Below the pieces are notes generated by a model, which did no database searches, had not been told where the DNA came from, and saw only the letters and a list, made by a program, of their open reading frames with translations. The position numbers were made by a program, and so were the translations under genes. 64,000 nucleotides of DNA from Zoogloea sp. (lineage in GTDB: Bacteria; Pseudomonadota; Gammaproteobacteria; Burkholderiales; Rhodocyclaceae), in NCBI GenBank assembly GCA_016703645.1, contig JADJBR010000007.1, positions 1,116,001-1,180,000 of the forward strand, in the 5' to 3' direction. Shown here piece after piece: positions 20,862-33,292 of the stretch. Each line of letters opens with the position of its first letter. Position 1 is the stretch's first letter.

Positions 20862-22910
20862 TCAGAAACGCCCCAGCTTGCGGTACAGGGTGTTGCGGCT
20901 GATGCCGAGGCGCCGGGCAGCTGAGGAGATGTTGCCGTTCTCGGCTTCAAGGGTGCGCTGGATCATCTCGCGCTCGATCTCTTCCAGGCTTCCCATGCCC
21001 CCCGCCGCCGATGCGCCGACCGGTGCTGCGACGCAGGCGCGGGCGGATCCGTTCATCAGCGACGGCGCGGCGACCTGGTGGGTGATCTCACTGATCTCCT
21101 CGAAGATGTCATCCGGAAGATGCCAGGTCTCGATGATTTCCTCGTCATCGTCGAGCAGCGCAATGGCCACCTTGATCACGTTGTTGAGCTGCCGGATGTT
21201 GCCCGGCCAGCGATAACTGACGAAGGCATCCATGACCTTGCGCGAGACCCGGACCTTGCGGTCCGGCCCGGCCTCTTCAAGCAACAGCTTCTCGATCAGG
21301 CTGTCGATGTCACTGCGCTCACGCAGGGACGGCAGATTGATGCACAGGCCGTTGAGACGATAGTACAAGTCTTCGCGGAAGCCCCCGCGTGCCACCTCTT
21401 CCTTCAGGCGCCGGTGAGTGGCGCAGACCAGGGTGATGTCCACCGGAATGCTCTTGTTGGTCCCCAGGGGCGTGACGCAACGCTCCTGCAGCACCCGCAG
21501 CAGGCGAGCCTGCAGGGACAGGGGCATGTCGCCGATCTCGTCGAGGAACAGGGTGCCACCATGGGCCTGCTGGATCTTGCCCACCGCGCCTTCCTTGCGC
21601 GCCCCGGTGAAGGCCCCGCCGGAATAGCCGAAGAGCTCGGACTCGATGAGGGTTTCGGGAATGGCCGCGCAGTTGAGGGCCACGAAGGGCCCGGCTGCCC
21701 GCGGCCCACTGTTGTGAAAGGCCTTGGCAAACATTTCCTTGCCTGCGCCGGACTCACCCTGGATGAGGATCGGGATATCGCGGCCGAGAATGCGGGTGCC
21801 CTTGTCGATGGCGGCCTGCAGACGTTCGTCACCGGTGGACAGGGACTTCAGCGTGAGCCGCTGTTTGGCGGGTGCCGCACCCGCCGGTGCCGGCACGGGC
21901 GCAATGGCGTCCTGACGGGGACGGCTGGTCATGCGTTCGCCCTTGGCATCCAGCAGTGCCTGGGCACCGGACACCATGGAGCCGAAGTTGCCCCGCAGGC
22001 GGGCATAGAAACGTTCGCCGTTACGACCCGAAATGGCAATCAACGAAGAGGGGTCGCGGCGCGCCCGGTCGATCAGGGTGCCCAGGGGCACATCGAAGAG
22101 CATGTTGTAGTGACGCCGGGGCAGATCCTCGCGGCGCATGCCGAGCAGTTCAAGGGCGGCCTGATCGGCGCCCAGCAGGTCGCCCTCGGGGCTGATGGCC
22201 AGCAGGGCTTCGCACAGGCTGCCCACATGGTCGGCACGGGAATGAAAACTGAGCAGGCCCTGGTGGGCGAACTCGGATTCGAAGAGGCGTTTTTCGATGA
22301 TTCGGGAAGACATCTTTACAAGGCCGAGGGAATGTCGCTGGAAGGCGCGGTAGTCACTGGAAATGTCCAGAACCCCCATCAGACGGCCCTGGGCGTCCTG
22401 GATGGGTGAAGCGCTGCAGGTGAGGAAGGCGTTGCCTTCGAAAAAGTGCTCGGAACCGAACACGTTGACTGCGCCCCGTTCGGCCAGCGCGGTACCAATG
22501 GCATTGGTGCCACGCTCAAACTCGTGCCAGCTGGCACCGGGGTGCAGCGCCACCTGCTCCGCACGGCTCAGGAAGTCCGCATCGCCGTAGCTTTGCAGCA
22601 CCATGCCCCGGGCGTCAGCCAGAATGACCATGCTGTGGGAATTGCGGATTTGCTCGAAAAGGTGTTCAAGCACGGGCTGGGCATGGGAAATCAGGGTGCG
22701 ATTCCGCTCCCTGGCTTCGGTGACGCCGCGCACATTGGGTTCACCACATTCGACACGGGCCGGGTCCAGGCCCGCCTGACGGCAACGCTCCCAGGAGCGC
22801 AGTACGTTCTGGTCGAGCAGGGCTTCCGGGAGTTCGCCCCGACCGAAATACAGAGACCGCGCTTCCTGAAGGCTCACCGAACGAGCCTCCACACTGAATG
22901 GAACCTGCAT
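20862..22910 (-). CDS. AcoR-type sigma-54 activator, GAF-AAA+-Fis
   Basis: 682 residues. An N-terminal GAF-like sensor (about 75-215, with GTNAIGTALAE and LTCSASPIQDAQG) is followed by a PAS-like segment (230-320), then AAA+ with Walker A GESGAGKE (386-393, numbered from the upstream ATG), an intact GAFTGA loop (433-438) and Walker B TLFLDEIGD. The C-terminal Fis helix-turn-helix is NISSAARRLGISRNTLYRKL. Two ATGs are adjacent; 22910 sits at better distance from GGAGGAGG than 22913. It is divergent from the pedF operon, whose sigma-54 promoter and palindromic sites lie between them, and is probably its activator. Confidence 0.92.
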   Translation of the reverse strand: MQVPFSVEARSVSLQEARSLYFGRGELPEALLDQNVLRSWERCRQAGLDPARVECGEPNVRGVTEARERNRTLISHAQPVLEHLFEQIRNSHSMVILADARGMVLQSYGDADFLSRAEQVALHPGASWHEFERGTNAIGTALAERGAVNVFGSEHFFEGNAFLTCSASPIQDAQGRLMGVLDISSDYRAFQRHSLGLVKMSSRIIEKRLFESEFAHQGLLSFHSRADHVGSLCEALLAISPEGDLLGADQAALELLGMRREDLPRRHYNMLFDVPLGTLIDRARRDPSSLIAISGRNGERFYARLRGNFGSMVSGAQALLDAKGERMTSRPRQDAIAPVPAPAGAAPAKQRLTLKSLSTGDERLQAAIDKGTRILGRDIPILIQGESGAGKEMFAKAFHNSGPRAAGPFVALNCAAIPETLIESELFGYSGGAFTGARKEGAVGKIQQAHGGTLFLDEIGDMPLSLQARLLRVLQERCVTPLGTNKSIPVDITLVCATHRRLKEEVARGGFREDLYYRLNGLCINLPSLRERSDIDSLIEKLLLEEAGPDRKVRVSRKVMDAFVSYRWPGNIRQLNNVIKVAIALLDDDEEIIETWHLPDDIFEEISEITHQVAAPSLMNGSARACVAAPVGASAAGGMGSLEEIEREMIQRTLEAENGNISSAARRLGISRNTLYRKLGRF

Positions 22911-22967
22911 CATCTCCTCCTCCGCTCATGCGGATTGTCTTCGGCACATTGGCCGATTTTCTGAACC

Positions 22968-22984
22968 TGCTCCAAAATGTAGCA
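22968..22984 (+). promoter_or_regulatory. palindromic activator site TGCTCCA-N3-TGTAGCA
   Basis: Lies 145 bp upstream of the sigma-54 promoter at 23129, a normal enhancer distance. It matches TGCTCCA-N3-TGGAGCA at all but one position. A half site, TGCTCCA, follows at 23011-23017. Probable binding sites of the adjacent AcoR-type regulator (inferred). Confidence 0.65.
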
Positions 22985-23128
22985 GGTGGGTCACATTTCA
23001 ACAACGCGACTGCTCCACTACGATTCCCTTACAGCAAGTGTTGGGCCACCTTATCGGTTCATAAGAAAAACTCGAAACCGGCTGTGCCACCAAGCACCCC
23101 GGCACCCCCCGGAAGCGCCACCCGGAAT

Positions 23129-23144
23129 TGGCACGCCCCTTGCT
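23129..23144 (+). promoter_or_regulatory. sigma-54 promoter of the pedF operon
   Basis: TGGCAC-GCCCC-TTGCT is a perfect match to the -24/-12 consensus, 77 bp before the pedF start. Confidence 0.9.
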
Positions 23145-23220
23145 GTCTCGACTGGCACACGGTGGCCTGCCAACCCGCGGTCCACTCGATGAATTCCAAT
23201 CATGACCAAAGGTGATCCAG

Positions 23221-23649
23221 GTGATTTTCCGCAACGCTTCCGTCCTTCGCATCCTCTCCGCCGCCGCCCTGACCGTCGCTGCCAACCTCGCCATGGCTCA
23301 TGGTGACGTCGTTCCCCAGGCCGTCGACACCTCGTCCCTGAAGCAGCTTGGCAAGGACTGGCTGCCCAAGAACCCCTACCTTGGCAACAAGGAGGCAATC
23401 CGCATCGGCGACTCGGCCTTCAACCAGAACTGCGCCCGCTGCCACGGCCTCGGCGCCATCTCGGGCGGCATCGCGCCGGACCTGCGCTATCTGCCTGCCG
23501 GTGAAGAGGGTGACGAAATCTTCATGCAGCGCATCCGCAAGGGCGCCACCCGCGACGGCCGCGTTTACATGCCCCCGTTCGAGGGCATCCTGAGCCAGGA
23601 AGCCATGTGGACCATCCGCGCCTGGCTGGAGACTGTACGTGCCGACTGA
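23221..23649 (+). CDS. pedF: periplasmic cytochrome c (cytochrome c550-like, PedF)
   Basis: 142 residues with a signal peptide cut near AMAHGDV and one haem site, CARCH. The axial Met is probably in YMPPFEG. It resembles PedF/ExaB-like electron acceptors of quinoprotein ethanol dehydrogenases. GTG 23221 is preferred (AAGGTGAT upstream); GTG 23212 is in frame and possible. First gene of the sigma-54 operon; it overlaps the next gene by 11 bp. Confidence 0.85.
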   Translation: MIFRNASVLRILSAAALTVAANLAMAHGDVVPQAVDTSSLKQLGKDWLPKNPYLGNKEAIRIGDSAFNQNCARCHGLGAISGGIAPDLRYLPAGEEGDEIFMQRIRKGATRDGRVYMPPFEGILSQEAMWTIRAWLETVRAD

Positions 23650-24484
23650 CCGTCGCACCTTCCTCCTTGCCGCCGGGGCCGCCGCACTGGCGGCAAGCCT
23701 GCCCGCAAGGGCCGACAGCCTGGCCGACATCCGCAAGCGCGGCAGCTTGCGGGTGGCCGTTTACAACAGCTTCCCCCCCTATTCGAATCAGGGCAAGGGA
23801 ATCGACGTGGATCTCGCCGAAGCCCTTGGCAAGCAGCTCGGGCTGGCCGTGCAGGTGGTCGGCTACAACGCCGACGAAGACATGGACGACGACCTGCGCA
23901 ACATGGTCTGGAAGGGGCACTATCTGGGCGCCCAACCGTCCGACGTGATGATGCACGTGCCCGTGGATTCTTACCTGCAGGGCAAGAACGACAAGGTCCG
24001 GATCTTCGGGCCCTATCACCTGGAATCCATTGCGGTGGCCCGGGTGCAGCGCATCAACCCGATCCGCGGCTCCGCGGCGGCAGCCCTTGAAGTCTTCACC
24101 CGGGAGAAGATCGGCGTGGAAGGCCGGACCCTGGCAGACGGCTTCCTGCTCGGCGCGCTGAATGGCCGGCTGCGCGAGAACGTGGTGCACTTTGCCAGCG
24201 TGGCAGCAGCCATCGACAAGCTCAAGGCAGGCGAACTGGCTGCCGTGATGGGCACCCGTTCGGAGATCGAAGCGGCCCTGGGCAAGGATGCGCGCTTTGT
24301 CGTCGAGGCCGTGCAGATGCCCGAACTCAAGTTCAATCACTGGCCGCTGGGCATGGCGGTGAAGGCCGACGAAGCAGCCCTTGCCGACGCTCTCTCCGCC
24401 GCGCTCAAGGAACTGCAGAAGAATGGGACGGTCGCAGCCCTGTTCGCTCGTTACGGCATCACCTACCAGCCCCCAACCCTCTGA
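23639..24484 (+). CDS. periplasmic solute-binding family 3 protein (MoxJ/PedG-like)
   Basis: 281 residues from a GTG overlapping the end of pedF. A twin-Arg-like leader (DRRTFLLAAGAAALAASLPARA) precedes a type II binding-protein fold (LRVAVYNSFPPYSNQGKGIDVDLAEAL). Such proteins accompany methanol and ethanol quinoprotein dehydrogenases, where they are thought to aid maturation rather than transport. No permease genes are nearby, consistent with that role. Confidence 0.82.
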   Translation: MPTDRRTFLLAAGAAALAASLPARADSLADIRKRGSLRVAVYNSFPPYSNQGKGIDVDLAEALGKQLGLAVQVVGYNADEDMDDDLRNMVWKGHYLGAQPSDVMMHVPVDSYLQGKNDKVRIFGPYHLESIAVARVQRINPIRGSAAAALEVFTREKIGVEGRTLADGFLLGALNGRLRENVVHFASVAAAIDKLKAGELAAVMGTRSEIEAALGKDARFVVEAVQMPELKFNHWPLGMAVKADEAALADALSAALKELQKNGTVAALFARYGITYQPPTL

Positions 24485-24488
24485 CACC

Positions 24489-25439
24489 ATGCGCCCCTTC
24501 CCCCACGCCCGCCTGCTGGGCACCCTGCTGGCCGGACTGATCCTGCCGGCCAGCGGGCTGGCCGCCCCGTTTGCCTACGTACCCAATGAGAAATCCGGGT
24601 CTGTGTCCGTCATCGATACGGCCACCGACACGGTGGTGCGGACCCTGCCCGGCGGCAAGCGCCCGCGCGGCATCGCCACGGATGGCACGCATCTCTATAT
24701 CAGCGAGGCGCCCAGCAGCAGTCTGGTGGTGGTGAATATCAACGAGGCGAGGCAGATCAAGAGCATCAAGCTGGGAGAATCACCGGAAGGCGTGAGCGTC
24801 TCCGCTGACAATCGCCTGATCGCGGCGGCCGTGGAGGAATCCAACAGCGTGGTGCTGCTGGATGCCCGCAAACGTCGGCAGATCGCCGAGATCAAGGTCG
24901 AGGGCGACAATCCCGAGCACGCCGTTTTCAGCCCCGACGGCCGCTGGCTGCTGGTCAGCGCCGAGAACGCGGAGCAGGTGGATGTGGTCGATGTCAGGGC
25001 ACGCCGCCAGGTGGGCAGCATTCCCGTGGGAAAACGCCCCCGTGGCATCGGCTTCACGCCGGATGGCAAGCGCGCCTATGTGGCCTGCGAGCTGGTCAGC
25101 ACGGTTTACGCCATCGACATGGACAGCCGCCAGGTGATTGCCGAAATCAAGGCAGGGACCTACGCCAACGGCGTGGCCATGGCACCGGACGGCAGCCGGG
25201 TCTATGTATCCAATGGCAAGGACGCCACCGTAAGCGTGATCCGCACCAGCGACCATCAGGTCGAGGCCACCATTCCCGTTGGCAAGCGCCCGTGGAACAT
25301 GGCTGTAACCCCCGACGGTCGCAAGCTCTACGTGGCCAACGGCCGCTCCAACAGTGTGACGGTGATCGACACCCAGCGACTCGAGGCCATTTCCGAAATC
25401 CCGGTCGGCGAATTACCCTGGGGCGTCACCATCCGCTAG
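24489..25439 (+). CDS. secreted YVTN beta-propeller protein
   Basis: 316 residues with a signal peptide (cut after SGLAA) and seven repeats of the YVTN type (FAYVPNEKSGSVSVIDTAT, AYVACELVSTVYAIDMD, VYVSNGKDATVSVI, LYVANGRSNSVTVID). PQQ-alcohol dehydrogenase clusters often carry such a protein; its role is not settled. It starts 4 bp after the previous stop, so it is in the same operon. A longer in-frame start inside the previous gene is rejected. Confidence 0.85.
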   Translation: MRPFPHARLLGTLLAGLILPASGLAAPFAYVPNEKSGSVSVIDTATDTVVRTLPGGKRPRGIATDGTHLYISEAPSSSLVVVNINEARQIKSIKLGESPEGVSVSADNRLIAAAVEESNSVVLLDARKRRQIAEIKVEGDNPEHAVFSPDGRWLLVSAENAEQVDVVDVRARRQVGSIPVGKRPRGIGFTPDGKRAYVACELVSTVYAIDMDSRQVIAEIKAGTYANGVAMAPDGSRVYVSNGKDATVSVIRTSDHQVEATIPVGKRPWNMAVTPDGRKLYVANGRSNSVTVIDTQRLEAISEIPVGELPWGVTIR

Positions 25440-25440
25440 C

Positions 25441-25516
25441 GTCTCCAAGCGGGAGCAGTAGACCGAGTATTGAACACATCCGCTCCAGAATGGAGCACCT
25501 GCTCCACCCTGGAGCA
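25441..25516. promoter_or_regulatory. three tandem TGCTCCA-N3-TGGAGCA-type palindromes
   Basis: CGCTCCA-GAA-TGGAGCA (25481-25497) and TGCTCCA-CCC-TGGAGCA (25500-25516, perfect) are 19 bp apart. A weaker GTCTCCA-AGC-GGGAGCA lies at 25441-25457. They sit between two convergent genes and not at a visible promoter. Same motif as 22968 and 30952. Confidence 0.65.
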
Positions 25517-25522
25517 GCCCAA

Positions 25523-25546
25523 AAAAAGGCCCTCATGGGCCTTTTT
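25523..25546. terminator. bidirectional terminator between convergent genes
   Basis: AAAAAGGCCC-TCAT-GGGCCTTTTT: a perfect stem with a T-run on both strands. Confidence 0.9.
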
Positions 25547-25562
25547 CATCACCGAATACGGA

Positions 25563-25877
25563 TCACAACTTGAGAATCCACTCCACCGCCGCCTTCAGGT
25601 CGGCATCGCTGATCTTGTCGGCCGGATGGGGGGGCATCGGGATCTGCCCCCAGTTGCCGGTGCCACCGCTGCGGATCTTTGCGCTCAGCACCGCCACGGC
25701 ATCGCCCTGCCCCTTGTACTTGGCCGCCACGTCCTTGTAGGCGGGGCCGACGCGCTTCTGATCGACCGCGTGACAGGCCACGCAACGTGCCTTCTTGATG
25801 ATCTCTTCCGACGCCACGGCCGGCGATACGGCGGCAAGACCCAGCGCGACAGCGCAAACCAGCTGGACAACGTTCAT
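25563..25877 (-). CDS. small class I cytochrome c
   Basis: 104 residues with a signal peptide ending SPAVAS, haem motif CVACH, and Met ligand probably in IPMPPHP. It is like cytochromes c551/c8. It sits between the pedF operon and the second AcoR-type regulator, and is probably part of the alcohol-oxidation electron chain. The gene runs into the shared terminator at 25523-25546. The promoter is unclear. Confidence 0.9.
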   Translation of the reverse strand: MNVVQLVCAVALGLAAVSPAVASEEIIKKARCVACHAVDQKRVGPAYKDVAAKYKGQGDAVAVLSAKIRSGGTGNWGQIPMPPHPADKISDADLKAAVEWILKL

Positions 25878-26292
25878 GAATGTGCTCCTCCTTGTTCTGA
25901 GTTGATTTTGATCGGCAAGGCGAGGCCGGATGAAAAAAACCGGACGGCGTGACGCCGCCCGAAAACCGCCTTGCCCGGGCTATCAGCAAAAAGTGTGCGG
26001 AACCCCTGTCACCTCAAAAAACAACATACCGAACAATAACTTGCGCTCAAAGCACGAAACTCCTCGCGGGCAACCCGTGCTCAGAGCCTGAACACCTGCT
26101 CCATAGCGTTACGCCAACATTGAACAACTGATCACCCGGCAAGCGCCACGGTGGCGTCCGGCGCGGCAATGAAAGCGCGTCCATTGGGGTGGAAACCCTT
26201 TGGCAGCGCGAGATCCAGACTCCACGCGGCGTTTCGCGCAGCGGGCCGCAGGCCATCCACGCCACGGGCATGTTTCGTGCTGCGTGAGTCTC
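25878..26292. other. divergent intergenic region with leader hairpin
   Basis: Holds a hairpin at 25941-25961 which, on the minus strand, is followed by seven T and therefore looks like an intrinsic terminator in the leader of the cytochrome gene. A weak sigma-54-like sequence (CCGCAC-ACTTT-TTGCT, minus strand) lies near 25986-26001, and a half site TGCTCCA at 26097-26103. No other gene is seen. Confidence 0.4.
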
Positions 26293-28158
26293 GTGAAAGA
26301 CACGGCCCCCAAAACCATCCATCAGTCCGCGGAAGCCATCCGGCGCTCCTGGGAACGTTGCGCCGCCAGCGGACTGCGGCCCGATGAGCGCCGGCCCGAG
26401 GAGCGCAGCCGCACCGCGGCCCTGTCCGACCGCCTTGAGGCCAATGCCCGTCTGGTCACTTACGCCCAACCCATCATGGAGCATCTGCACCAGCAGATCG
26501 CCCGCAGCTCGTCCACCATCCTCCTGGCCGACGACTCGGGCACCATCCTGCGCTCGGTGGGCGACGCCGACTTCCTGGAGCGCGCGGCCCGCATTGCCCT
26601 CAAACCGGGCTACTCGTGGTCCGAGGCGGCCATGGGAACCAACGCCATCGGCACGGCCCTGGCAGAACAGCGCCCCGTCGCGGTAATCGGCGAAGAGCAC
26701 TACCTGGACCGCAACAAATTCCTGACCTGTGTGGCCACCCCCATACATGCGCCGACAGGAGGGGTTCTGGGCATCCTGGACGTGTCCACCAGTGCACGCC
26801 TCACCCAGGTACATGCCCAGGCGCTGCTGCAGACCACCGCGGAGATCATCGAGAATCGCCTGATCGAGACCGTGGCCGACGCCGCCGTCGTGATCCGCTT
26901 CCACCATCAGCCCGAGGCCCTGGCCTCTCCCCTCGAAGGCCTTGCCGTATTCGACGAAGGGGGCGCCTTCCTGGCCTGCAACCGGCGCGCAGAACGCCTT
27001 CTGGGTCTGAGCGACACGCGCATCCTGCGGCCCCCCTTCTGGGAGATCTTCGAGACGCGCTGGAATGCCTTGCTCGAACATGCCCTCCAGAGCAGCGCGC
27101 ACCCCACGACCCTGCGCAGTCACCTTGGTCGGGAGTTCGTCGCCTGCGTGCTGGTGAGCAATCTGCAGCGCGTGAGGAACATCGCCGGATCGCGAGACAG
27201 TCGTCCGGCACACCCGGCCCGGCCCCTGCCCACCCTGGACGACCTGGATCTGGGTGACAAGGCGCTGACGTACGCCATCCGCCGTGCCCGGCGCATTCTC
27301 GGTCGCGACATTCCCCTCCTCGTGCAGGGTGAGACGGGGACCGGCAAGGAGGTGTTCGCCCAGGCCTTCCACCAGAGCGGCCCCCGCCGCAATGGCCCCT
27401 TCGTGGCCATCAACTGCGCCGCCATCCCGACCAACCTGATCGAGGCCGAGCTGTTCGGCTACACCCCGGGCGCCTATACCAGCGCCCGCAGCGAAGGCGC
27501 CAAGGGCAAGCTGCGGGAGGCCCACGGGGGAACCCTCTTCCTGGATGAAATCGGCGACATGCCCCTCAAGCTGCAGGCCGTGCTCCTGCGCGTCCTCGAA
27601 AGCCGCCGGGTCACGCCGCTGGGGGGCGGCTCGGAGGAAGCCATCGACCTGTCCCTCGTATGCGCCAGCCACCGATCCCTGAAAGCGCTGTGCGAACGTG
27701 GCGAGTTCCGTCCTGACCTGTATTTCCGCCTCTCGGCAATGAGCCTGTCACTGCCGGCCCTGCGTGAGCGCAGCGACATCGAAGCACTGGCGCGGCGCCT
27801 GCTCCACGACGAATCGCCGGGACGGCCAATCCGTCTCTCGGCCTCGTCCCTCGACCTGATCCGCCGCCACCCGTGGCCGGGCAACATCCGCCAGCTACGT
27901 AACGCCCTGCGCCTCGCCGCCGCCATGCTGGCCCCCGACGAAGACACCCTGACGCCGGAGCATCTGCCCCAGGAGCTCACGGACGACCCCGAGCTCACTT
28001 CGCCCGCACCGGCCGCCCAGAGCCTGCGGGCGGCCGAAGGTCGTCTGGTGGGCGACACGGTGGCCAGGCACAAGGGGAACATCTCCGCCGCCGCCCGCGA
28101 GCTGGGCATCACCCGCACGACCCTCTACCGCAAACTGCGCCAGCACGCCGCCCCCTGA
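26293..28158 (+). CDS. AcoR-type sigma-54 activator with GAYTSA loop
   Basis: 621 residues from GTG 26293; GTG 26284 is also possible and no clear ribosome site decides. GAF-like sensor (about 60-195, MGTNAIGTALAEQRPV), PAS-like segment, AAA+ with Walker A GETGTGKE and Walker B TLFLDEIGD, then a Fis helix (NISAAARELGITRTTLYRKL). The sigma-54 contact loop reads GAYTSA (393-398) instead of GAFTGA. It is a paralogue of the regulator at 20862-22910 and probably serves another promoter of the same cluster. Confidence 0.9.
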   Translation: MKDTAPKTIHQSAEAIRRSWERCAASGLRPDERRPEERSRTAALSDRLEANARLVTYAQPIMEHLHQQIARSSSTILLADDSGTILRSVGDADFLERAARIALKPGYSWSEAAMGTNAIGTALAEQRPVAVIGEEHYLDRNKFLTCVATPIHAPTGGVLGILDVSTSARLTQVHAQALLQTTAEIIENRLIETVADAAVVIRFHHQPEALASPLEGLAVFDEGGAFLACNRRAERLLGLSDTRILRPPFWEIFETRWNALLEHALQSSAHPTTLRSHLGREFVACVLVSNLQRVRNIAGSRDSRPAHPARPLPTLDDLDLGDKALTYAIRRARRILGRDIPLLVQGETGTGKEVFAQAFHQSGPRRNGPFVAINCAAIPTNLIEAELFGYTPGAYTSARSEGAKGKLREAHGGTLFLDEIGDMPLKLQAVLLRVLESRRVTPLGGGSEEAIDLSLVCASHRSLKALCERGEFRPDLYFRLSAMSLSLPALRERSDIEALARRLLHDESPGRPIRLSASSLDLIRRHPWPGNIRQLRNALRLAAAMLAPDEDTLTPEHLPQELTDDPELTSPAPAAQSLRAAEGRLVGDTVARHKGNISAAARELGITRTTLYRKLRQHAAP

Positions 28159-28363
28159 GGGCGCGTGACGAAACCGGGTCGCGGGGCAGCTTCACTTACA
28201 AGCACTGATCGCCCTTCGCAACACTTGCCATCCATTATATGCGCGGTCAAGCCGCCTGCACCCGCTTTGAGGGGATTCGGATCCGGTGACGCCCCCCCCC
28301 GGATGCCGGACGCCGTCCCCTGTGGGATACTCGCCTCCAGATCGCCCTTCACGAAAGCATCCT

Positions 28364-28735
28364 TTGAAACCTAGCGCCCTTTTCACCAGCGCCATCCTTC
28401 TCACCGTGTCCGCCTGCGCCCCGGCGCCCAGCCCCCTGCCTGCGGAGATGCAGGCCGAGTTCCAGCCGGGAATGACACTTGAAGACGCCAGCCGACGGCT
28501 CACCGCCCGCGGCACCACCTTCTCGGTGAAGACCGAAGCGGAATGCCAGGCGCTGGTCGAGCGCAGCCCCAATATCTCCCAGCTCCGTCCCCGGGGCGGG
28601 CCTTGCGTCTTCGGCAAGATCCCCCTGTCAAAGACCTGGTTCGGCGGCCACACAGACCTCATCCTGCAGCTCGTGTTTACCCCCGGCAACACCCTGGCCG
28701 ATGCCCACTTCGAGGAGATCGGCAGCCTGATGTAG
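28364..28735 (+). CDS. small lipoprotein, unknown function
   Basis: 123 residues from TTG 28364 with a lipoprotein signal (SALFTSAILLTVSAC). The mature part has GMTLEDASRRLTARGTTFSVK and two Cys (ECQALVERS, GGPCVFGK) that could form a disulphide. The layout resembles SmpA/OmlA-type small lipoproteins but I would not assign it. An upstream ATG at 28286 adds a proline-rich run unlike a leader. It ends at a shared terminator. Confidence 0.6.
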   Translation: MKPSALFTSAILLTVSACAPAPSPLPAEMQAEFQPGMTLEDASRRLTARGTTFSVKTEAECQALVERSPNISQLRPRGGPCVFGKIPLSKTWFGGHTDLILQLVFTPGNTLADAHFEEIGSLM

Positions 28736-28750
28736 GCGCCAAAAAGGAAA

Positions 28751-28777
28751 AACCCCGACGGGGGGACGAACGGGGTT
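28751..28777. terminator. terminator between convergent genes
   Basis: AACCCCG...CGGGGTT stem; on the minus strand it is followed by TTTTT, so it mainly serves the sensor-regulator-cytochrome operon. Confidence 0.75.
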
Positions 28778-28825
28778 CTTCACAACATGCAATCCTTCGC
28801 GGCCACCGCCGCGCGCTTCACACCC

Positions 28826-29206
28826 TTACTTGGGGGCCAGCGTCAGGATCCACTTCACCAGCTTCTTGGCGTCGGCTTCCTTGATGGCCACCTTGTTGGG
28901 GGGCATGACCAGGCCGCTGACCTGGTCCTTCCAGTGGCTGCCATAGGGGTTGGAGCCTTCCAGCACCACGCGGGTCAGGAACGCGTCGGCACCCGGCTTG
29001 CCCTTGTACATCTTGGCCACGTCCTGCCAGGCGGGGCCGATGGGGGCCATGCCATTGGGGCCGGGCGTGCCATGCTCGATGGCATGGCAGGTCATGCAGC
29101 CGCTCTTCGCAGCCAGAGCCTTCATATCGTCGTCCGCGGCCGCACAGGCAGACGTTGCGGCCATGCCCAGACCGGCCAGCAGGGCGATCTTGTGTAAGGC
29201 GTTCAT
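28826..29206 (-). CDS. periplasmic class I cytochrome c
   Basis: 126 residues: signal peptide (cut near ACAAADD), haem motif CMTCH, Met ligand probably in LVMPPNK. It is downstream of the response regulator by 45 bp and ends at a terminator, so it is probably the last gene of the sensor kinase operon. Likely one of several periplasmic electron carriers for the quinoprotein dehydrogenase. Confidence 0.88.
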   Translation of the reverse strand: MNALHKIALLAGLGMAATSACAAADDDMKALAAKSGCMTCHAIEHGTPGPNGMAPIGPAWQDVAKMYKGKPGADAFLTRVVLEGSNPYGSHWKDQVSGLVMPPNKVAIKEADAKKLVKWILTLAPK

Positions 29207-29251
29207 CTTTCTTCTCCTTGACTAAAAAAGGCGTTCATCCGGGCTCCATCG

Positions 29252-29899
29252 TCACGCCGGGCTCGCCGACCAGTCGATCAGTCCGTAGCGCGCGGCAAGC
29301 CGCAGCAGCTTGAAATCGTTGTCCGCGTCCAACTTCTGACGGATGGCGGACATATGGTTGTGTATGGTCTTCTGACTCAGATGCATCGTGCTGGCGATGG
29401 CGCAGGGCGACTCGCCACTGGCCGCCAGACGCAGCACGTCGAACTCCCACGATGTGAGGCGGGACAACAGCGCCTCTCCATCAAGGGCAGCCCCCGCCAG
29501 GGCCTGGGCCACATCCGGCGAGAGCACCCGCCGGCCAGCCGCCACGTCGTGGATCGCATCAAGCAACTCGGCCGGCTCGCTGTTCTTGGTCAGGTAGCCG
29601 AGGGCACCGACACGCATGGCCTGGGTGACATAGCTGGGGTTGTCGTGCATGGAGATCACCAGCACTCTCAGGCCGGGCTCCCGGGCCAGCATGCGCCGGA
29701 TCGCATCAATTCCGCTGCTGCCCCGCAGGTTCAGATCGACGATGGCGAGGTCGGCACCGTGCTCCACCAGACGGGCATAGGCCTCGTCAGCGGACGCAGC
29801 CTCACCGACAACGCACATGTCGTCTTCCGCATCAAACAGGCGCCGATAGCCATTACGAACCACCGCGTGATCTTCCACCAACAGGATCCGGATCGTCAT
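29252..29899 (-). CDS. NarL/LuxR-type response regulator
   Basis: 215 residues. Receiver domain with phospho-acceptor Asp55 (AIVDLNL) and Lys in YLTKNSEP; C-terminal LuxR helix-turn-helix (LTSWEFDVLRLAASGESPCAIASTM and KTIHNHMSAIRQKL, cited in parts). It resembles the ExaE/AgmR/PedR group that controls PQQ alcohol dehydrogenases. It lies 10 bp after its kinase and probably controls the dehydrogenase at 31421. Confidence 0.92.
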   Translation of the reverse strand: MTIRILLVEDHAVVRNGYRRLFDAEDDMCVVGEAASADEAYARLVEHGADLAIVDLNLRGSSGIDAIRRMLAREPGLRVLVISMHDNPSYVTQAMRVGALGYLTKNSEPAELLDAIHDVAAGRRVLSPDVAQALAGAALDGEALLSRLTSWEFDVLRLAASGESPCAIASTMHLSQKTIHNHMSAIRQKLDADNDFKLLRLAARYGLIDWSASPA

Positions 29900-29909
29900 C
29901 GCGCCCTCC

Positions 29910-31205
29910 TCAGGCTTGTCCCTGGCTCAGGGGCAGGCTCAAATGCACACGCAGGCCGCCACCGGGCGCCTCGTCCAGCCAGCACCGCCCGCCCGCCATC
30001 TCGGCCCGCTCCCGCATGCCGAGCAGCCCGCCACGGGCCTTGCGCACCACATCCGCCACCTGACCAACGCCGTTGTCACACACCGTGAGCTCCACCGCCT
30101 TGCCCACCTGCTGCAGCGACAGACAGACCCGACTTGCCACGCTGTGACGCAGCACATTGGTCAGGGACTCCTGCAGGGTCCGGTAGAGCGCAAGCCCTGC
30201 CGCCGGCGGCAACGCCGGCAAGGTGGATGGAAACGCAGTCTCGATACCGATGTCCGGTGCCCGGCCACGCCAGCCGCTCACCAGATCATTGAGGGCATCC
30301 ACCATCTGCAAGCCCTCCAGACCATGGGGGCGCAGCTGGGAGAGGAGAGTCCGAACCTGACCGATCATTCGTGTGGATTCATTGCGTATGTCACGGGCAC
30401 TTTCCGCCAGATCGTCCGGAGATGCCCGGCCGGCATGGCGCTCAATGTAAGCGGCGGAAATACTGACGGCCGTCAAGGCCTGACCGAACTCATCGTGCAA
30501 CTCCCGTGCCAGATCCCGCCGTTCGGTTTCCTGCAGCTCCAGCAACTGCCGGGCAAGCTGCTGACGGGCCGCCCGGGTCTCCGCAAGCTCGATGGAAAGA
30601 CGCTCCATGGCGCTGGCGATGCTGGCGAATTCCCGCAGACGGAATGGCGGCAGCGTGATCCTCTCCTCACTGCGCCCGATGCGGGCAAGCCCCTGCTCCA
30701 GCTCCCGCACCGGTTTCAGGGCCCGGTGGGCGGCAAGCCACGCCACGACAGCCATCCCCAGGGAGAAGACGACCAACGTGGCGATGATGCGCACGCCATC
30801 GCGCAACACCTCATGGATCTCCGCCCGGGCATCGGCGCGGATCACCAGAACACGATCACCCAGGGCAATGCGCCGCTCGTGGATCTTGCGCCCTTCCATC
30901 AGGTGATCCACCAGGGCCGGGAGGATGCCATCGGCCTGTGGCGCAACACCTTGCTCCATATTGGAGCGCTCCACGGACAGCGCAACGTGTCGCAACTGAC
31001 CACCTGCCAGCAGGGCCTCCAGTTCGCCACTGCCCTGCCCATCGGATGCGCGCAAGGCGAGGATGGTATTCACGAGGTGGGTCGAGGCCTCCATCTCCTC
31101 GGCCACATCCTCCCGCAGGGCCAGCCCCACCCAGGCCACCGCCATCACGAGCAAGCCCAGGGCAAAGCCAAGCACGTAGCCAAACAGTCTCCAGCGCAGA
31201 TCCAC
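29910..31205 (-). CDS. membrane sensor histidine kinase (HisKA_3 type)
   Basis: 431 residues: membrane helices at about 8-30 and 139-160 flank a periplasmic sensor of about 105 residues, then HAMP, a dimerisation helix with His237 (ARELHDEFGQAL) and an ATPase domain ending in GGGLRVHLSL. The kinase partners the NarL-type regulator immediately downstream. A sigma-54 promoter lies 37 bp before the start. A 17-bp palindrome of the cluster's family lies inside its coding sequence at 30952-30968. Confidence 0.92.
   Translation of the reverse strand: MDLRWRLFGYVLGFALGLLVMAVAWVGLALREDVAEEMEASTHLVNTILALRASDGQGSGELEALLAGGQLRHVALSVERSNMEQGVAPQADGILPALVDHLMEGRKIHERRIALGDRVLVIRADARAEIHEVLRDGVRIIATLVVFSLGMAVVAWLAAHRALKPVRELEQGLARIGRSEERITLPPFRLREFASIASAMERLSIELAETRAARQQLARQLLELQETERRDLARELHDEFGQALTAVSISAAYIERHAGRASPDDLAESARDIRNESTRMIGQVRTLLSQLRPHGLEGLQMVDALNDLVSGWRGRAPDIGIETAFPSTLPALPPAAGLALYRTLQESLTNVLRHSVASRVCLSLQQVGKAVELTVCDNGVGQVADVVRKARGGLLGMRERAEMAGGRCWLDEAPGGGLRVHLSLPLSQGQA
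30952..30968. promoter_or_regulatory. TGCTCCA-TAT-TGGAGCG palindrome inside the kinase gene
   Basis: Matches the motif at 22968 and 25481-25516 with 13 of 14 arm positions. It is about 275 bp downstream of the sigma-54 promoter at 31243. A role as a downstream enhancer is possible; chance is not excluded. Confidence 0.45.
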
Positions 31206-31242
31206 GCCCGCCTCCTTGTTCTTGATTTATGGGAGCAGATCA

Positions 31243-31257
31243 GCAAGGCATGTGCCA
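31243..31257 (-). promoter_or_regulatory. sigma-54 promoter of the two-component operon
   Basis: The minus strand reads TGGCAC-ATGCC-TTGC followed by T, a full consensus match, 37 bp before the kinase start. Confidence 0.88.
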
Positions 31258-31269
31258 GATCCCGGAACC

Positions 31270-31335
31270 GGCGGGAAAACTTCCCGCCCCCGGTGGGAGC
31301 CCTTCCCACGACAACACGTGGAAGGCGCTTCCATA
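31270..31335. promoter_or_regulatory. three phased inverted repeats between kinase and dehydrogenase
   Basis: GGCGGGAA-AAC-TTCCCGCC (31270-31288), GGTGGGAG-CCC-TTCCCACG (31292-31310) and CGTGGAAG-GCG-CTTCCATA (31317-31335). All have a 3-bp centre with GGAA/TTCC-like arms, starting 22 and 25 bp apart. They lie 86-150 bp before the dehydrogenase start and just upstream of the divergent sigma-54 promoter. Probable activator sites, perhaps for the NarL-type regulator (inferred). Confidence 0.65.
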
Positions 31336-31420
31336 CTGCGCCTCGTTCCGGGCCGTGGCACCACAAGGGGGGCAGGTCCGGAAGCGACGAACGACAACAT
31401 TCCGGAGACAAGGACTCACC

Positions 31421-33292
31421 ATGAAAAACAGACGTGTCAATCTCAAGCCCGGCCTCCTGGCCTTCGCCCTCGCGGCAGCATTCGGCACTTCCGCCCACGC
31501 GGTGGGCGCCAAGGTCACGTGGGACGACATCCGGAACGACGACAAGACCCCGGGTGATGTGCTCACCTACGGCCTCGGTCTGAAGGCCCAGCGTCACAGC
31601 ACCCTGAAGACGGTCAACACCAAGAACGTCGCCGGCCTGGTGCCCGCATGGAGCTTCTCCTTCGGCGGCGAGAAGCAGCGCGGCCAGGAAAGCCAGGCCC
31701 TGGTGCACGACGGTGTGATCTATGTGACCGCCTCCTACTCCCGCATTTATGCCATCGATGCCCGCACCGGCAAGCGCCTGTGGGAGTACGAAGCCCGCCT
31801 GCCCGAGGATATCCGCCCCTGCTGTGACGTGGTGAACCGTGGCGCCGCCATCTACGGCGACAAGATCTACTTCGGTACCCTGGACGCCGGCATCGTGGCC
31901 CTCAACAAAGACACCGGCAAGGTGGTGTGGAAGAAGAAGTGGGGCGACCACAAGGTCGGCTACACCATGACCGGCGCGCCCTTCGTGATCCAGGACCAGA
32001 AGAGCGGCAAGGTTCTGCTGGTGCACGGCTCCTCGGGTGACGAGTTCGGCGTGGTCGGCTGGCTGTTTGCCCGCGACACCGAGACCGGCGAGGAAGTGTG
32101 GGCCCGCCCGATGGTGGAGGGCCACATGGGCCGCCTGAACGGCAAGGACAGCACCTACACCGGCGACCCCAAGGCCCCCAGCTGGCCGGAAGGCCCGGAC
32201 GGCAAGAAGGTGGAGGCCTGGAGCCACGGTGGCGGCGCCCCCTGGCAGACCGCCAGCTTCGACCTCGAGAAGAACATGGTGGTCATCGGCACCGGCAACC
32301 CGGCCCCGTGGAACACCTGGAAGCGGACCAAGGAAGGCGACGATCCTCGCAACTGGGACAGCCTCTTCACCTCCGGTCAGGCCTATGTGGACGCCAGCAC
32401 CGGCGAACTGAAGGGCTTCTTCCAGCACACCCCCAACGATGCCTGGGACTTCTCCGGCAACAACTCGGTGGTGCTGTTTGAGTACAAGGATCCGAAGACC
32501 GGCAAGATGGTCAAGGCCTCGGCCCACGCCGACCGCAACGGCTTCTTCTTCGTGACCGACCGGGACAAGCTGACCAACGGTGCCGGCTACCCCAACAAGC
32601 CGACCGCGCTGATCGGTGCCTACCCGTTCGTCGACGGCATCACCTGGGCCAAGGGCTTCGATCTCAATACCGGCAAGCCCATCATTGTCGAAGGCCAGCA
32701 CCCGCCCAAGGTCAAGGAAGGCGCCGACAAGGGCGAGAGCATTTTCGTGTCCCCCCCCTTCCTGGGCGGCACCAACTGGATGCCCATGTCCTACAGCCCG
32801 GACACCGGCCTGTTCTACATCCCGGCCAACCACTGGGCCATGGACTACTGGACCGAGCAGCTGACCTACAAGGCGGGCTCCGCCTATCTGGGCCAGGGCT
32901 TCCGCATCAAGCGCCTGTTTGATGACCACGTGGGCACCATCCGCGCCATTGATCCGAAGACCGGCAAGATCGTATGGGAACAGAAAGAGAAGTTCCCCCT
33001 GTGGGCTGGCACCCTCACCACCGCTGGCGGGTTGCTCTTCACCGGTACCTCCGACGGCTACGTGAAGGCCCTCGACGCAAAGACCGGCAAGGAACTGTGG
33101 AAATTCCAGACCGGCTCCGGCGTGGTGTCCGTGCCCATCACCTGGGAAATGGATGGCGAGCAATACGTCGGCATGTCCTCCGGCTACGGCGGCGCTGTGC
33201 CCCTGTGGGGCGGCGACATGGCCGACCTGACCAAGCAGGTCACCCAGGGCTCGTCCTTCTGGGCCTTCAAGCTGCCCAAGATCGCGCGCTGA
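31421..33292 (+). CDS. exaA: PQQ-dependent alcohol dehydrogenase, calcium type
   Basis: 623-residue periplasmic quinoprotein with a signal peptide (cut after SAHA), eight-bladed propeller repeats, the vicinal disulphide Cys134-Cys135 (RPCCD), metal ligands Glu208 and Asn293 (GTGNPAPWN), and catalytic Asp343 (DAWDFSGNN). Position +2 from the catalytic Asp is Ser345; lanthanide-dependent XoxF/PedH enzymes have Asp there, so a Ca2+-dependent PedE/ExaA-type enzyme is indicated. No C-terminal cytochrome domain, so separate cytochromes c must take the electrons. Start at 31421; the longer frame into the intergenic region is rejected. Confidence 0.95.
   Translation: MKNRRVNLKPGLLAFALAAAFGTSAHAVGAKVTWDDIRNDDKTPGDVLTYGLGLKAQRHSTLKTVNTKNVAGLVPAWSFSFGGEKQRGQESQALVHDGVIYVTASYSRIYAIDARTGKRLWEYEARLPEDIRPCCDVVNRGAAIYGDKIYFGTLDAGIVALNKDTGKVVWKKKWGDHKVGYTMTGAPFVIQDQKSGKVLLVHGSSGDEFGVVGWLFARDTETGEEVWARPMVEGHMGRLNGKDSTYTGDPKAPSWPEGPDGKKVEAWSHGGGAPWQTASFDLEKNMVVIGTGNPAPWNTWKRTKEGDDPRNWDSLFTSGQAYVDASTGELKGFFQHTPNDAWDFSGNNSVVLFEYKDPKTGKMVKASAHADRNGFFFVTDRDKLTNGAGYPNKPTALIGAYPFVDGITWAKGFDLNTGKPIIVEGQHPPKVKEGADKGESIFVSPPFLGGTNWMPMSYSPDTGLFYIPANHWAMDYWTEQLTYKAGSAYLGQGFRIKRLFDDHVGTIRAIDPKTGKIVWEQKEKFPLWAGTLTTAGGLLFTGTSDGYVKALDAKTGKELWKFQTGSGVVSVPITWEMDGEQYVGMSSGYGGAVPLWGGDMADLTKQVTQGSSFWAFKLPKIAR

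Follow-up and report, generated by a model that had tools for sequence, protein, structure and literature searches.

A palindrome family around a pedF-like operon of Zoogloea, very probably operators of a neighbouring sigma-54 activator, includes a promoterless pair at the operon end

The site of a sigma-54 activator usually lies roughly 80-200 bp from the -24/-12 promoter, and enhancers in bacteria are as a rule described upstream of their genes; downstream cases include the FleQ sites and the ftr sites of Caulobacter. In a cluster of alcohol-oxidation genes of Zoogloea sp., a palindrome of the type TGCTCCA-N3-TGGAGCA stands before a pedF-like operon and again, as a tandem pair, after the last gene of the same operon. 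What binds these palindromes, and what does a pair at the end of an operon do? We examined these questions in a window of 64,000 nucleotides (contig JADJBR010000007.1, positions 1,116,001-1,180,000), of which positions 22,968-31,205 form the cluster piece. Judged from the sequence, the palindromes are very probably DNA operators of REG1, the activator encoded next to the operon, and there is about an even chance that the operon-end pair acts as a downstream enhancer. The features on which the argument is built are listed below; L127 and L128 are two genomes of the same genus whose activators are the closest (87% and 83%, respectively).

20862..22913, minus strand: REG1, an activator of the AcoR/BmoR type with a GAF domain, a sigma-54 AAA+ domain and a Fis-type helix-turn-helix (HTH) (Pfam GAF, Sigma54_activat and HTH_8); candidate binder of the palindromes
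22968..22984, no strand: upstream site U, TGCTCCAAAATGTAGCA, one mismatch, by pattern scan
23011..23017, plus strand: half site TGCTCCA, 43 bp from U, a spacing also kept in L127 and L128
23129..23143, plus strand: perfect sigma-54 promoter TGGCACGCCCCTTGC (TGGCAC-N5-TTGC) of the pedF-like operon, by pattern scan
23212..23649, plus strand: cytochrome c-550 PedF (TIGR04494, 213.9 bits, cut-off 122)
23639..24484, plus strand: PedG/MoxJ-like periplasmic solute-binding protein (SBP; Pfam SBP_bac_3, TIGR03871 far under its cut-off)
24492..25439, plus strand: beta-propeller protein associated with pyrroloquinoline quinone (PQQ), the final operon gene here (TIGR03866, 221 bits, under the cut-off of 287)
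25481..25497, no strand: operon-end site T1, CGCTCCAGAATGGAGCA, one mismatch, 19 bp from T2
25500..25516, no strand: operon-end site T2, perfect, by pattern scan
25523..25546, no strand: separate terminator-like hairpin beside the array, by RNA fold

The pattern scan bore out the sites that the original prediction had placed at 22968, 25481, 25500 and 30952. The number of mismatches to TGCTCCA-N3-TGGAGCA was one at 22968, 25481 and 30952, and the site at 25500 was perfect, as had been claimed; the half sites TGCTCCA described at 23011 and 26097 were present as well. In contrast, the weaker site proposed at 25441 was rejected. It has three mismatches and a matrix score of 3.4 bits, which is within background (95th percentile, 5.9 bits, from the matrix scores of 300-bp windows). 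Moreover, the window holds five sites with at most three mismatches against 4.28 expected, which is no excess, and thus 25441 by itself carries no meaning.

Then the whole genome of 4.99 Mb was scanned, as the original prediction had proposed, with the reversed pattern as a control. Six sites with at most one mismatch were found and none in the control, and four of the six fall within this 8 kb. When two mismatches were allowed, there were 21 sites against 5 in the control. A dispersed (REP-like) repeat would appear in many genome copies, and the six sites do not fit such a repeat.

We searched 150 genomes of the family, the own genome counted in, for orthologues of REG1 and found them in 43; they travel with the motif. 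The genomes with and without REG1 were divided by a hand-chosen cut of about 51% identity, and genomes with hits of 44-50% were put among those without. The 43 genomes with the orthologue contained 65 sites (control, 4), and the 107 genomes without it contained 53 (control, 14). The Mann-Whitney p value for the enrichment was 2e-7, uncorrected for kinship, and the compared loci share ancestry and are not independent. We also took 40 comparison stretches around REG1 orthologues from 37 other genomes, 763,027 bases in total. These stretches held 12, 17 and 26 sites with zero, one and two mismatches, respectively, against 0, 0 and 1 for the reversed control. In 80 further named loci (32-55% identity; 1,490,306 bases) the corresponding numbers were 0, 3 and 10, with a control of 0, 0 and 0, which is a weak excess.

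By Pfam, REG1 combines a GAF domain, an AAA+ domain and a Fis HTH, as is expected for the AcoR/BmoR type, and so has the AAA+ sigma-54 domain and HTH that the activator of a sigma-54 regulon should carry. The gene for sigma-54 is encoded in the genome. No NCBIfam model passed its cut-off for the activator among the best 25 of 30. BmoR and AcoR share the GAF-AAA+-Fis layout; REG1 is likened to them by this layout, and its target operon is different.

In order to follow the two kinds of site across relatives, we used a locus table of 41 rows. Seven rows (L158, L160, L161 and L163-L166) had no usable CYT1 hit or too wide a gap and were dropped, leaving 34 evaluable loci. A sigma-54 match with at most one mismatch stood at the place of the pedF promoter in the 34 loci, and the best site in the interval between REG1 and pedF lay 94-181 bp from the promoter. 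The sites were scored with a weight matrix trained on 59 sites, the operon-end class among them. The upstream site exceeded 99% of the background in 17 of the 34 loci and 95% in 30, and many upstream sites were of the variant TGTTNCA-NNN-CGTAGCA. We also hand-listed 21 operon-end and 11 upstream sites from the REG1 stretches, each with two mismatches at most. All 11 upstream sites had a sigma-54 promoter within 400 bp, and 10 of these promoters were perfect. In the window, the promoter at 23129 begins 144 bp beyond the end of site U, and the perfect sigma-54 promoter predicted beside the first site is indeed there.

The fifth of the genome-wide sites with at most one mismatch is perfect and lies at C7:1234281 (L002), about 93 kb from the cluster in the window. 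It stands between two genes that start divergently, one for a second PQQ alcohol dehydrogenase and the other for a SoxYZ-like carrier associated with quinoproteins (TIGR04557, over its cut-off). On each side of the site is a perfect TGGCAC-N5-TTGC, at 159 and 165 bp start to start. In two other genomes (G016 and G090), a perfect site stands beside a perfect sigma-54 promoter of a second-dehydrogenase gene that is 81% identical. The distances, 94-181 bp at the pedF-like operon and 136-176 bp start to start at the second dehydrogenase, are those expected of dyads in a sigma-54 regulon. These results agree with the original prediction that the palindromes mark the activator's regulon: the motif is enriched around REG1 orthologues and in REG1 genomes, and it stands beside sigma-54 promoters including that of the second dehydrogenase.

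The two dehydrogenases differ in a short motif. The second (L002:3-1229) has WDFDGVNE and that of the window (31421-33292) has WDFSGNN, which we take to be markers of the lanthanide type and the calcium type, respectively; by these markers REG1 sites may link both dehydrogenase types.

The operon-end sites behaved differently from the upstream sites with respect to promoters. None of the 21 hand-listed operon-end sites had a sigma-54 promoter within 400 bp, while random positions in the same stretches had one in 15% of cases. The claim that ordinary promoter activation is not sufficient to explain the tandem pair therefore held. These 21 sites lie 1.4-3.0 kb from the promoter and are spread over 11 genera. 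A strong operon-end site, that is, one exceeding 99% of the background within the 270 bp scanned after the last operon gene, was found in 24 of the 34 loci. In 22 loci the operon-end score exceeded the upstream score, in 11 it fell short of it, and in one the two were equal; 10 loci combined a weak upstream site with a strong operon-end site. The placement at the operon end holds whether the last gene found is that of the SBP, the beta-propeller or a cytochrome b561. The cytochrome b561 gene follows the beta-propeller gene in most relatives, including G036 of the same genus, and in some relatives neither of the two was found past the SBP gene.

The spacing of the sites was also characteristic. 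We counted pairs closer than 70 bp in which each site had at most four mismatches, the two together six, and the better member at most three. Exactly 19 bp separated the members in 15 of 25 such pairs, and the control gave no pairs. The best offset for half sites in the flanks was also 19 bp, on both sides and in both the upstream and the operon-end classes. In the window the 19-bp pitch is seen in the pairs 25481/25500 and 26078/26097.

From these observations we propose the following mechanism. The GAF domain of REG1 would sense alcohol or a related signal, and REG1 would assemble on the 19-bp arrays and drive the sigma-54 polymerase through DNA looping. The operon-end pair would raise the local occupancy of REG1 at the REG1/pedF promoters 2.4 kb away; the upstream site there is often the weaker one, and the pair, as a downstream enhancer, would supply REG1. 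We consider this whole explanation, with the palindromes as operators of REG1 and the operon-end pair as a promoterless downstream enhancer, to be somewhat more likely than not.

A downstream enhancer is plausible because of the precedent of rocG of Bacillus subtilis. There rocG requires a RocR site situated 1.5 kb beyond the promoter, and partial activity remains when that site is moved up to 15 kb away (PMC4941409). Both systems have an activator site, here a candidate one, past the 3' end of the regulated gene, which for rocG (RocR, sigma-L) is in the intergenic region 1.5 kb from the sigma-54 promoter (PMC4941409). The likeness is one of position only. The rocG element doubles as the upstream site of the next sigma-54 operon, rocABC, whereas the 21 operon-end sites described here have no sigma-54 promoter within 400 bp. 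In addition, unlike the rocG element alone, the pedF-like operon also has an upstream site. Among the literature passages covered, rocG is the clearest case of a downstream enhancer.

Several points weigh against our explanation. The matrix favors the operon-end class, because that class is part of the 59 sites on which it was trained, and the scoring is thus tilted toward it. In ten of the 34 loci the scanned 270 bp contain no strong operon-end site. Among these ten is L140, whose one-mismatch site lies 337 bp beyond the SBP gene; it is thus missed in the scan and yet included among the 21 hand-listed sites. Sites exceed the control in the genomes without REG1 too, so that other proteins may use similar sites, or else the control is too low. 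REG2, a second activator of the cluster with the identical domain layout, could bind the sites as well. Finally, the sites keep to the operon end, a restriction that an enhancer would not require.

This last point fits a roadblock or boundary, in which REG1 bound at the operon end would block read-through from the operon, when strongly induced, into the next genes (CYT2, for example) and aid termination. We rank this reading second after the enhancer and regard it as unlikely. The operon-end position is constant whatever genes precede it, and in the window the pair adjoins the terminator-like hairpin. That hairpin is already a separate element, however, and the genes that follow vary: the next gene is convergent in L133 (kinase-like) and L146 (glyoxalase) and is a co-directional HTH gene in L156. 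The roadblock also leaves the ten loci with weak upstream and strong operon-end sites unexplained. A gene loop, with the two ends of the pedF operon held together by REG1 and the operon end as the main docking array, appears to us possible though doubtful. If it were true, it would be a natural bacterial gene loop maintained across the family despite gene gain and loss. Titration or storage is improbable. A high-affinity, promoterless site could buffer free activator, and the close match to the consensus, together with the absence of a nearby sigma-54 promoter, suits this idea, but a buffer would not need to lie at the end of one and the same operon across genera.

It might also be asked whether the inverted repeats work in the transcript, as terminators or 3' stabilizers. 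The T1/T2 pair folds stably as RNA (z -7.5), and the operon-end copies carry extra dyad symmetry outside the 17 bp, which the upstream copies do not. The core, however, is identical to that of the upstream sites, and the letters are kept, not the pairing alone. The extra symmetry coincides with the flanking half sites at the 19-bp pitch. An intrinsic terminator would need a T run behind its stem, but only 3 of the 21 sites have, within 28 bases, five consecutive T on the downstream side or five consecutive A on the upstream side. In view of the shared core, the kept letters, the pitch and the scarcity of such runs, a hairpin or terminator as the sole function was rejected, and we think an RNA role very improbable. 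It is also quite unlikely that REG2, or both activators, bind the sites and that the closeness of REG1 is incidental. REG2 has the same architecture and Fis HTH, and a good site stands just before REG2 in L133, L136, L137, L138 and L149 (scores, 18.4-22.4); several rows of this list of REG2 loci, at 45-49% identity, were cross-hits of REG1 and were disregarded. On the other hand, when REG2 was looked for in 34 of the 43 REG1 genomes, a full-length orthologue (at least 53% identity) was present in only 16. The operon-end site is retained in G049, G112, G036 and G147, four REG1 genomes that have no close, full-length orthologue of REG2.

The remaining features of the cluster lie beyond the operon-end pair.

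25563..25877, minus strand: CYT2, a small cytochrome c, convergent (Pfam Cytochrom_C)
25986..26000, minus strand: weak sigma-54-like element CCGCACACTTTTTGC, two mismatches, upstream of CYT2, by pattern scan
26078..26113, no strand: degenerate tandem pair 26078 and 26097, 19 bp apart, upstream of CYT2 and REG2, by matrix scan
26296..28158, plus strand: REG2, second activator with GAF, sigma-54 AAA+ and Fis-HTH domains (Pfam)
29252..29899, minus strand: LuxR-type response regulator (Pfam)
29910..31205, minus strand: histidine kinase (Pfam)
30952..30968, no strand: kinase-gene site K, TGCTCCATATTGGAGCG, one mismatch, about 290 bp downstream of the kinase promoter
31243..31257, minus strand: perfect sigma-54 promoter TGGCACATGCCTTGC, 38 bp upstream of the kinase start, by pattern scan

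The half site at 26097 stands 19 bp from 26078 and is thus a member of the degenerate tandem before CYT2. The block around 26097 is kept in L127 and L128, while the stretch 25986-26000 appears conserved in L127 and not in L128; several other genera have a one-mismatch sigma-54 element at the latter position. At eight REG2 loci of other genera, a one-mismatch sigma-54 element lies 124-146 bp beyond the best site before REG2. As for REG2 itself, G060 has only a REG2-like fragment. The orthologue of a same-genus genome (G133:C53:437226-439040) contains one in-frame TGA and may thus be a pseudogene or reflect a sequencing error; the operon-end site is perfect in that genome.

The kinase, the LuxR-type regulator and the PQQ dehydrogenase at 31421-33292 span 29252-33292. 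The perfect sigma-54 promoter of the kinase is also found in L127, L128, L137 and L147, and with one mismatch in L139. Site K was likewise expected from the original prediction and is present; what remains uncertain is its role, which is plausible but partly explained by coding. K encodes a conserved ERSxMEQ-like stretch, and in L128 the residues RSNLEQ are kept but synonymous changes lower the site to three mismatches. This argues that K is a coding coincidence and no operator. In the opposite direction, the score at this spot was 8.5-22.1 in the six kinase loci with the sigma-54 promoter versus -6.4 to 11.7 in the five without it (p = 0.006, uncorrected for kinship). This comparison was made without L154 (gene cut by the end of the stretch), L156 (just under the 40% cut) and hits of 30-32% identity. 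Also, the 500 bp before the kinase start yielded no further good site, which leaves K as the only one found near the promoter. Weighing both sides, we consider coincidence and operator about equally probable. Inside the same gene, a perfect sigma-54 match at 30497 (minus strand, CTGGCACGGGAGTTGCAC) was rejected; it is probably a coding coincidence, because its letters translate to L-A-R-E-L-H, within the HisKA_3 region.

Three consecutive palindromes of the type GGGAA..TTCCC stand at 31273-31333, before the PQQ dehydrogenase gene. A CGGGAA..TCCCGG-like copy was seen by eye in six of seven other intergenic regions between kinase and dehydrogenase, L139 having a variant. These palindromes are perhaps candidate sites of the LuxR-type response regulator, in which case the dehydrogenase would be under a different kind of control.

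A few sites elsewhere should be mentioned. For the sixth genome-wide site with at most one mismatch, C10:150534 (L006), neither a sigma-54 match within 450 bp nor a cluster-gene hit was found, and it is likely a chance occurrence. The perfect site L170 (G086:C1:1801045) likewise lacks a sigma-54 match within 450 bp and a cluster-gene hit nearby. The two-mismatch version TGGTCCAGAATGGAGAA (L007, L008 and C9:683737) occurs on contigs C2 and C9, and on C4 with one inner letter changed; these copies are perhaps part of a dispersed repeat. L011 and L012 are identical two-mismatch sites, TGCCCCACACTTGAGCA, 6.6 kb apart on C7, which suggests a local duplication.

The palindrome can also be compared with the operators of known regulators. 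The operator of NtrC is TGCACCA-N3-TGGTGCA, and it has the same 17-bp dyad layout with one letter different in each arm. NtrC belongs to another class of regulator, and by Pfam REG1 has no receiver domain. For BmoR, which is described as alcohol-responsive, an upstream site with a putative inverted repeat is reported 193 bp from the -24/-12 boxes; deletion of that repeat gave a wild-type-like response, so that the site of BmoR is unsettled there (PMC8899819). The ped/exa genes of Pseudomonas form a parallel set (kinase, LuxR regulator, pentapeptide protein, PQQ alcohol dehydrogenase, PedF and PedG) in another order, and AgmR, of the LuxR type, is said to raise most genes of the ped cluster (PMC12997753). 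The cluster studied here has a pedF-like operon with a sigma-54 promoter and an adjoining GAF-AAA+ activator. A literature search covering the titles and openings of abstracts listed, with subscription papers mostly beyond its reach, found no description of this motif or of an operon-end enhancer for these genes. The regulon itself belongs to a known kind, and what is new is the promoterless array at the operon end, conserved across the family.

An array of this kind, which is present downstream in many genera, often outscores the promoter-side site and has no sigma-54 promoter of its own, would make a clean test system. It opens the questions of whether operon-spanning loops, boundaries or activator depots exist in bacteria. 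For this family, the alcohol-oxidation genes would gain a regulon logic unlike that of the ped cluster of Pseudomonas.

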